A DNA stretch of 64,000 nucleotides, taken from the NCBI RefSeq assembly GCF_013391105.1, contig NZ_CP058335.1:186001-250000 (forward strand), read 5' to 3'. The notes under the pieces were generated by a model, which was not told the origin of the DNA, searched no databases, and saw nothing but the letters and a program-made list of their open reading frames with translations. Position numbers and translations under genes: made by a program. Each line of letters starts with the position of its first letter. Positions within the stretch are counted from its first letter, which is position 1. This DNA is from Natronomonas salina. Lineage in GTDB: Archaea; Halobacteriota; Halobacteria; Halobacteriales; Haloarculaceae. Of the stretch, positions 19,089 through 22,923 are shown one piece after another.

Positions 19089-20011
19089 GACCCCCGACGC
19101 CGGGCCTCCACCACGTCTCGGCCATCGCGAGCGACCCGCGGGCGAACGTCGACTTCTACACCGACGTGCTGGGGCTGCGGTTCGTCAAGCGGACCGTCAA
19201 CTTCGACGACAAGTTCGCCTACCACCTCTACTACGGGGACGACCGGGCGACGCCCGGGACCCTCCTGACCTTCTTCCCGTACCCGCGGGACGACGACGGC
19301 CGGGTCGGCCGGCCCCAGCCGAAATCGGTCGCCTTCTCGGTGCCAGCGGGGTCGGCCGGCTACTGGTACGAGCGACTCCTCGAGCGGGGGATCGACGCCG
19401 ACGAACCCGTCGAGCGCTTCGGCGAGCCGACCGTCGCGTTCCGCGACCCGGACGGACTGGCGGTCGAACTGGTCGAGCGGGACGCTCTGCGAGGTCCCGC
19501 TACGGACGTCGTTCCCTCGGACCGCGCCATCCGGAACCTCCACAGCGTGACGCTGCTGTCGACCAGTATCTACCACACCGCGGCGACGCTGGAGGTACTC
19601 GGATTCGAACTGCTCGACCAGGAGGGCGACCGGGTCAGGTACCGCGCGCCCGGCGAGTACGGGACCGACGTGGACCTGCTCGACGTCGAGACGGAGTACG
19701 GTCGGGAGGGCAGCGGGACGATCCACCACGTCGCCTTCGGCGCCGGCGACACGTCGCTCCCGGAGTGGCGCGACCGGCTCCTCGAGGCGGGCCTGGAACC
19801 GACGTTCGTCAAGGACCGCTACTACTTCGAGTCGATCTACTTCCGCGAACCCGGCGGCATCCTCTTCGAGATCGCGACCGCCGAACCGGGGTTCACCGTC
19901 GACGAGAACCCCGAAGACCTGGGGTCGACGCTCAGCCTCCCGCAGTGGTTCGAGGAGGACCGCGAGATGATCGTCTCGCAGCTCCCCGATCTCGAGGTGC
20001 CCGACAGTTGA
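19085..20011 (+). CDS. VOC-family ring-cleaving dioxygenase (MhqO/MhqA-like), copy 1
   Basis: 308 residues from GTG 19085, overlapping the hydrolase stop by four bases. It opens GLHHVSAIASDPRANVDFYT, the classic N-terminal vicinal-oxygen-chelate motif with the first metal His. The second module has SGTIHHVAFGAGD near residue 216 and GGILFEIATAEPGFTVDENP near 255, supplying His and Glu ligands. Relatives open the ring of hydroquinones or catechols. A paralogue follows 63 bp downstream, so the two probably arose by tandem duplication. Confidence 0.88.
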   Translation: MRPPTPGLHHVSAIASDPRANVDFYTDVLGLRFVKRTVNFDDKFAYHLYYGDDRATPGTLLTFFPYPRDDDGRVGRPQPKSVAFSVPAGSAGYWYERLLERGIDADEPVERFGEPTVAFRDPDGLAVELVERDALRGPATDVVPSDRAIRNLHSVTLLSTSIYHTAATLEVLGFELLDQEGDRVRYRAPGEYGTDVDLLDVETEYGREGSGTIHHVAFGAGDTSLPEWRDRLLEAGLEPTFVKDRYYFESIYFREPGGILFEIATAEPGFTVDENPEDLGSTLSLPQWFEEDREMIVSQLPDLEVPDS

Positions 20012-20074
20012 TCCGTTCCCACGCGACTCGCCGGCGCCCCAGACGTTAACCCGCCAGTCGGCGTATCTCCGGGC

Positions 20075-21004
20075 ATGCCGTCCGCTATTCCAGGTATCCA
20101 CCACGTCACGGCCATCGCCAGCGACCCGGGCCGGAACCACGACTTCTACACCCGGACGCTCGGCCTCCGGATGGTCAAGCGGAGCGTGAACCAGGACGAC
20201 GTCTCCGTGTACCACCTCTTCTACGGCGACCGCGGCGGCTCGCCGGGAACGAGCATGACCTTCTTCCCCTACACCGACGCCCGGCCGGGTCGGGTCGGGG
20301 CCGGCCAGGTCAGCATGACCCAGTTCCTCGTCCCCGAGGGATCGGTCGACTACTGGGTCGACCGCCTCGCCGACGAGGGCGTCGACGCCGACGAACCCGT
20401 CGAGCGCTTCGGCGACACCGTGATCCCGTTCCGGGACCCCGACGGCCTCCCGCTGGAACTCGTCGCGCGGGCCGACGCGCCCGACGGGGACCCCCCGGAG
20501 GGCCCGGTCCCGGCCGAGCACGCCGTCCGGGGGTTCTTCGGCGTCGCGCTCACCCTCCAGACCGCGGAACCGACGGCGGGCCTCCTCGAAGAGATGGGGT
20601 TCGACGCCGTCGAGGGAGAGGGCGACCGTCAGCGGTTCCGCGCCGACGGCGACCTCGGCTACGTCGTCGACCTCCTCGAGGAGCCGCAGGCGCCAAGGGG
20701 CCAGCCCGGTGCCGGCACCGTCCACCACGTCGCCTTCCAGGTGACCGAGGAGGAGCAGGCAGAGTGGCGGGAGGTCCTGCTGGACCGGGGCCTCCGCCCC
20801 ACCGAGATCATCGACCGGAAGTGGTTCAAGTCGGTCTACGCGCGCACCTCCGGCGGCGTGCTCTTCGAGTTCGCGACGAAGTCGCCGGGTTACACCGTCG
20901 ACGAGGACCTCGAGAGCCTCGGCGAGCGGCTCGTCCTCCCGGAGTGGCTCGAGGACCGCCGCGACGAGATCGAGGCCGGCCTGCCGGACCTCGACGCCAA
21001 CTGA
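20075..21004 (+). CDS. VOC-family ring-cleaving dioxygenase (MhqO/MhqA-like), copy 2
   Basis: 309 residues starting MPSAIPGIHHVTAIASDPG. It has the same two-module plan as the preceding gene, with metal ligands in GIHHVTAIAS, AGTVHHVAFQVTEEE near residue 211 and GGVLFEFATKSPGYTVDED near 257. The shared phrases (GLRMVKRSVN versus GLRFVKRTVN, and the identical VDADEPVERFG) show a clear paralogue relation, but the proteins have diverged well beyond a recent copy. It may handle a different aromatic substrate. Confidence 0.88.
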   Translation: MPSAIPGIHHVTAIASDPGRNHDFYTRTLGLRMVKRSVNQDDVSVYHLFYGDRGGSPGTSMTFFPYTDARPGRVGAGQVSMTQFLVPEGSVDYWVDRLADEGVDADEPVERFGDTVIPFRDPDGLPLELVARADAPDGDPPEGPVPAEHAVRGFFGVALTLQTAEPTAGLLEEMGFDAVEGEGDRQRFRADGDLGYVVDLLEEPQAPRGQPGAGTVHHVAFQVTEEEQAEWREVLLDRGLRPTEIIDRKWFKSVYARTSGGVLFEFATKSPGYTVDEDLESLGERLVLPEWLEDRRDEIEAGLPDLDAN

Positions 21005-21461: not shown

Positions 21462-22300
21462 ATGACCGAACGGAGTGCCGCGGACGAGGGGTGGTTCGCG
21501 GGCGTGGATCCCGGGGACACCGACGGGGCCGCGGCCGCCATCCGCGAGGGCGAAGCGGACGCCTCCGCGGCGTGGCCGTCCCCTGGCCGTCGACGCGGGG
21601 TTCGCCGCCGACGAGGAGCGCTACTACGAGATGCTCCACGAGGCGTCGATGGCGGCGACCCGCGCCGCGGTGACCGAAGCCGAGACGGCGGGCGACCAGC
21701 AGTTGATCCACGCGGTCCCGCGCGATGGACGACTGCGAGCGCGTGGCCAACGAGCTCGCCGAGCGCGTCGCGGAGTGGGCGGGCAGCCGCCGGGACGGCG
21801 CGGGGACGGGCGTCGAGTACGCGAGAGAGCTGGCCGAGGAGGACGGCGACGACCCGTTGCTCTCGCTGGCGCGGCGGGTCCGAGACCTCGACGACGAGGC
21901 GGCCGACCTCCGGTCGCACGTCGAGCGGACCGCCCCCGAGGTGGCGCCGAACCTCGCGGCGCTGGCGGGGCCGGTCCTCGCGGCGCGGCTCGTCGCGCTG
22001 GCCGGCGGGCTGAAGCAGCTTGCCCGGAAGCCGGCGGGGACGGTGCAGGTGCTCGGCGCGGAGGAGGCGCTGTTCGCGCACCTCCGCGGGCACGCGCCGT
22101 CGCCGAAGCACGGCGTCATCTTCGTCCACGAGGCCGTCCAGGGGACCCACCCCGAGAACCGCGGGTCGGCGGCCCGGGCGCTGGCCGGCAAACTCGCTAT
22201 CGCGGCGCGGGTCGACCACTACTCCGGGGAGCGGAAGCCCGAACTGGACCAGGAGCTGGCCGACCGCATCGAGCGCATCCAGGCGCGTGATACGGAATGA
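21462..22300 (+). pseudogene. nop5: Nop5 (C/D box sRNP core protein), interrupted by two 1-nt insertions
   Basis: The start MTERSAADEGWFAGVDPGDT is in one frame; the next part (LAVDAGFAADEERYYEMLHE to DQQLIHAV) is in a second; the remainder (MDDCERVANELAERVAEWAG to the stop) is in a third. Removing one C from the C4 at about 21579-21582 and one C from the C3 at about 21719-21721 restores a continuous 278-residue protein with coiled-coil and Nop domains (SPKHGVIFVHE, ARALAGKLAIAARVDHYSG). Nop5 holds fibrillarin on guide RNAs for 2'-O-methylation of rRNA and tRNA and is expected to be essential. Both lesions are extra C in C runs, so assembly error is more likely than loss. Fibrillarin follows with a 4-nt overlap. 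Confidence 0.85.
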
Positions 22301-22923
22301 GCCTGCCCGAGGGCGTCGAGCGCCGGCCGTTCGACGGGAGCGAGTCGCTGGCGACCGACGGCGAGGCGGTCTACGGCGAGCCGACGGTCGACGACTGGCG
22401 GCGGTGGGACCACCGGCGCTCGAAGCTCGGCGCGATGCTCGAGACCGGGATGGACACCGGCCTCGAGGGCGGCGAGACCGTCCTCTACCTCGGTGCCGCC
22501 GCCGGGACGACAGTCAGCCACGTCGCGGACTTCGCGGGGCCGACCTACGCCGTCGAGTTCGCCGCGCGGCCGGCCCGCGACCTGCTCGACGCCGCGGAGC
22601 CCCGGGAGAACCTCTTCCCGCTGTTGAAGGACGCCCGGAAGCCGGAGACGTACGCGCACGTCGTCGAGCCGGTCGACGTGCTGGTCCAGGACGTGGCCAC
22701 CCGCGGGCAGGCGAAGGTGGCGCTGGCCAACCGGCAGTTCCTCCGCGACGACGGACGGCTCCTGCTGGCCGTGAAGGCCCGCAGCGAAGACGTCGCTCGC
22801 GACCCCGACGAGGTGTTCGACGAGGTCCTCGAGGCCCTGGAGGAGGGGTACGAGGTCCTCGAGACGCGGTCGCTGGAGCCGTTCCACGACGACCACCTGG
22901 GCGTCGTCGCGCGGCCGGAGTAG
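22297..22923 (+). CDS. flpA: Fibrillarin-like rRNA/tRNA 2'-O-methyltransferase
   Basis: 208 residues, normal for archaeal fibrillarin. The SAM-binding motif is ETVLYLGAAAGTTVSHVADF near residue 61, followed by YAVEFAARPARDLL near 86 and VDVLVQDVATRGQAKVA near 126; the catalytic Lys is in LLLAVKARSED near 155. It forms the C/D box RNP with Nop5, whose gene overlaps it by four bases, and L7Ae (not in the window). The gene itself is intact, unlike nop5 directly upstream. Confidence 0.95.
   Translation: MSLPEGVERRPFDGSESLATDGEAVYGEPTVDDWRRWDHRRSKLGAMLETGMDTGLEGGETVLYLGAAAGTTVSHVADFAGPTYAVEFAARPARDLLDAAEPRENLFPLLKDARKPETYAHVVEPVDVLVQDVATRGQAKVALANRQFLRDDGRLLLAVKARSEDVARDPDEVFDEVLEALEEGYEVLETRSLEPFHDDHLGVVARPE

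Follow-up and report, generated by a model that had tools for sequence, protein, structure and literature searches.

The split nop5 gene and its neighbours

The DNA analysed here (the window) is a stretch of 64,000 nucleotides, positions 186001-250000 of an assembly consisting of one 3.75 Mb contig with 99.84% completeness and 2.8% contamination. The nop5 gene in it begins, by frame reading, with the ATG at 21462 and ends with the stop codon at 22298-22300, and its residues are distributed over three frames: 1-40 in frame 1, approx. 41-85 in frame 2 and 86-278 in frame 3 (Table 1). The original prediction held that these three consecutive frames encode one conserved Nop5, which was confirmed by frame reading and by tblastn against relatives. 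It had also placed a one-base insertion in each of two C runs; one extra base was indeed found in each run, but the predicted coordinates were 1-2 bases off, and those of the true runs are listed in Table 1. Dropping one C of each run gave the uninterrupted frame of 278 residues that had been expected. The two +1 sites are separated by 137 bases, and the codon statistics, obtained with a model trained on the genome itself, change frame at about 21581 and 21720.

Table 1. Features of the nop5 locus (window coordinates)
Feature	Position	Strand	Evidence and remarks
nop5 (aNop56/58, box C/D sRNP core protein)	21462..22300	+	split over three frames; frame reading, tblastn vs relatives
C4 run (CCCC), one base too many vs all aligned relatives; codons W-P-S-L-A-V	21580..21583	+	frameshift-aware alignment with G004 and G005 proteins (+1); codon alignment, 20 loci
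C3 run (CCC), one base too many vs all aligned relatives; codons H-A-V-R-A-M-D-D	21717..21719	+	frameshift-aware alignment; codon alignment, 20 loci
Longest intact nop5 piece, 191 aa, coiled-coil and Nop domain	21725..22300	+	ORF list, Pfam
Fibrillarin-like 2'-O-methyltransferase (flpA), intact	22297..22923	+	390 bits to NF003278; 4-base overlap with nop5

The Nop (snoRNA-binding) domain PF01798 was recognised in the last segment of nop5 (21725-22297) with a score of 139 bits (cut-off 25.4; E=2e-40). The curated aNOP56 equivalog NF011121 was matched with 201 bits only, below its cut-off of 452; this model has 417 positions, of which the C-terminal stretch alone is matched, and the haloarchaeal protein has 278 residues. 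The assignment as Nop5 is based on PF01798 and orthology, and not on NF011121. The ATG of the 191-residue piece is the conserved Met of RAMDDC, the codon of which is kept in nearly all relatives in the codon alignment, and it does not argue for a new start.

The fibrillarin gene that follows was intact, as predicted, and the adjacency of the two genes is also present in the sister genome G004. Nop5 links fibrillarin to the complex of L7Ae and sRNA, and guided 2'-O-methylation in vitro requires three proteins, of which it is one (PMC3608112). The same protein set is encoded by H. volcanii, in which HVO_1669 and HVO_1670 are adjacent by number (PMC2584109). In its Nop domain, in the haloarchaeal length of approx. 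278 residues and in its place directly upstream of fibrillarin, the gene resembles the archaeal Nop5 (H. volcanii HVO_1670); the sole difference lies in the two one-base insertions of the present assembly. Upstream of nop5, two tandem glyoxalase-type dioxygenase paralogs with 67% DNA identity are located at 19107-21004. A tRNA-Trp, sought for an intron-borne box C/D guide, was not reported in a 1.2 Mb sample of the genome.

Nop5 genes of relatives and copy number

The mended Nop5 showed 72-81% identity to the proteins of genus members over nearly the whole length (tblastn), and the closest named relatives of the gene were Natronomonas species. Full-length alignments were obtained at 97 of the 101 haloarchaeal ortholog loci examined, and nearly all of these 97 were in one frame throughout, including every one of the 16 aligned loci of the same genus. 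A frame break among the full-length loci was seen only as a deletion type, in one metagenome-derived genome that was represented by three locus identifiers (L020, L021 and L131). Approx. 28 codons are missing there ahead of the Nop domain core and the frame changes at this place, which is probably an assembly fault. The stop flagged at one further locus (L127) lies upstream of the gene start.

In a codon alignment of 20 relative loci, some of which were the same genomes entered twice, an extra base was not found at either site. The codons of these relatives read W-P-x-x-A-V at the first site and H-A-V/I-R-A-M-D-D at the second. This bears on programmed ribosomal frameshifting or transcript slippage, which could mend the frame at both sites, since both are C runs and the shift needed is in the same sense. 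A conserved shift site would be expected for such a mechanism; however, neither insertion is present in any relative, the two sites share no motif beyond the C run, and the contexts are different at the other affected genes described below. We therefore consider frameshifting or slippage extremely improbable.

The original prediction had also proposed a search for a second nop5. When this was carried out on the whole genome, PF01798 matched at one place only. A nucleotide search using the 4.7 kb that surround nop5 returned only the query region itself, the tandem paralog of the glyoxalase gene and short matches attributable to chance. A broken copy accompanied by a working one which is missing from the assembly, on a plasmid or in a collapsed repeat, could be imagined, because plasmids may be absent from a single-contig assembly and the genome carries two RNase J genes. 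Against this, the nop5 found here adjoins fibrillarin, as it does in G004, and the nearest relatives of G004 show no second nop5 apart from a fragment in one draft genome, so that a missing working copy has next to no probability. In a draft Natronomonas-type genome (G019, locus L023, C10:30702-30941) a second, N-terminal-only nop5 fragment was observed, which meets stop codons after approx. 93 residues and lies approx. 16 kb from the full-length gene.

One-base indels across three assemblies

In order to survey one-base indels, samples of 1.2 Mb from this genome, 1.2 Mb from G004 (a single contig) and 0.4 Mb from another genus member (G005) were compared. Each conserved protein was aligned to the DNA of the other genome with one-base shifts allowed, in both directions. 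Frameshift-aware alignment replaced a simple tblastn split detection, the hits of which over-extended, so that nop5 was missed. Many of the raw events fell at the starts of genes for which the reference protein had an upstream extension; these were discarded by hand in either direction of the comparison. The candidates at contig positions 320706 and 141777/141860, searched against the genus, stand outside the indel count.

In 595 conserved genes (166k codons) of this assembly, nine clear one-base indels were located inside genes, including the two of nop5. The reciprocal test gave no clear internal indel in G004 (636 genes, 171k codons) or in G005 (approx. 120 genes). The difference between nine indels per 497 kb here and none per 512 kb in G004 corresponds to a Fisher p of 0.0016, a value which rests on hand filtering; the excess over the sister assemblies is strong but not exact. 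Seven of the events were insertions (contig positions 68185, 68739, 207579, 207715, 418715, 419442 and 795664, the third and fourth being the nop5 pair) and two were deletions (751789 and approx. 3657961), both outside G/C runs. The one event in G004, near a gene end (742540), mirrors the shift at 751789. At approx. 1470 of the window (contig 187470) a weak sign of a further +1 shift was seen towards the C-terminal end of a conserved gene, with a flanking score below that required for counting.

Six of the seven insertions fell in C or G runs of 3-7 bases. Because an insertion makes the run in which it sits longer, the proper comparison is with the share of bases in G/C runs of at least two, which is about one third as computed by hand from run counts; the enrichment is thus real, though modest. 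The insertions group into three pairs, each within 750 bp, for which the simulated chance was approx. 1e-5. The two members of the pair 68185/68739 lie in neighbouring genes of opposite strand, which speaks for a locally poor consensus and not for the decay of a single gene. Over 300 bases, the local G+C of nop5 ranked at the 94th-97th percentile; high G+C was nevertheless rejected as a general cause of the indels, as the other sites were not unusual. Ab initio calling with a 3-periodic Markov model gave mostly false calls with the first training set, into which antisense frames had been mixed. The retrained model detected the shift at 68745 and left nop5 unflagged, because the nop5 segments are too short.

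Compared with intact genes, those carrying indels were of average or above-average conservation, the C-terminal piece of nop5 reaching 88.8% where the median was 80.4%. Among them are a member of the RNase J family (TIGR00649), a NUDIX-type gene, a carboxyltransferase-type subunit of an acyl-CoA carboxylase and a geranylgeranyl-reductase-family oxidoreductase; another, named from its sequence, is presumably a FlaI/TadA-type secretion ATPase. For the carboxylase gene (best paralog 51%), and likewise for the NUDIX and reductase genes, the genome yielded no close intact copy. RNase J occurs in two copies, one at contig positions 418649-419994, outside the window, with two one-base insertions and one at contig positions 1333750-1335087 that is intact, and both are equally close (approx. 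86%) to that of G004. Since an intact copy exists, the indels are not necessarily all errors, and the RNase J copy with the insertions could be a real pseudogene.

Origin of the two extra bases

The sequence comparisons suggest that this organism very probably has a normal, single-copy nop5 and that both extra bases are one-base errors remaining in the consensus of the assembly. Such errors are left where short G/C runs are covered by error-prone reads, and we infer that the reads themselves would not support the extra bases. The sequence error implied by the original prediction, as opposed to gene loss, agrees with the lack of a second copy in the genome, with the fact that no relative shares the insertions and with the occurrence of similar indels here but not in the sister assemblies. 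A residual consensus error explains all of the observations.

Taken as it reads, the deposited sequence would mean that the insertions are real, recent mutations, in which case a full-length Nop5 could not be made and only the 191-residue C-terminal piece would be possible. The broken RNase J with its intact paralog resembles a real decaying duplicate and lends this reading some weight. For nop5, however, +1 events would have had to arise independently at two sites, separated by 137 bases, in a single-copy core gene that is otherwise unchanged; the fibrillarin partner is intact, and similar indels occur in unrelated genes. In addition, Nop5 connects fibrillarin with L7Ae and the guide RNA and is thus required for box C/D methylation (PMC3608112). 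We regard such a pair of real mutations as improbable, and programmed frameshifting likewise. It would be surprising if nop5 were lost and fibrillarin retained, although no statement on its essentiality in haloarchaea was found. That a living haloarchaeon lacks full-length Nop5 and has a C-terminal Nop-domain piece beside an intact fibrillarin is very improbable; if true, box C/D-guided methylation would be dispensable, or workable without the fibrillarin-binding domain.

Preferring the consensus errors, we consider the finding ordinary and most probably an assembly artefact. Indel errors that fragment genes are recognised in long-read assemblies (Kastor, PMC12007338; Polypolish, PMC8812927). 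The present case is like those described there in its spurious frameshifts, in the conserved genes affected and in the involvement of homopolymer lengths; it differs from them in the shortness of the runs (3-7). The interest of the result is chiefly for annotation. Automatic pipelines would label nop5 a pseudogene, and gene-content studies would score the false loss of a core archaeal gene. Extrapolated from nine indels per approx. 500 kb of conserved coding sequence, approx. 50-60 genes of the assembly may be falsely broken.
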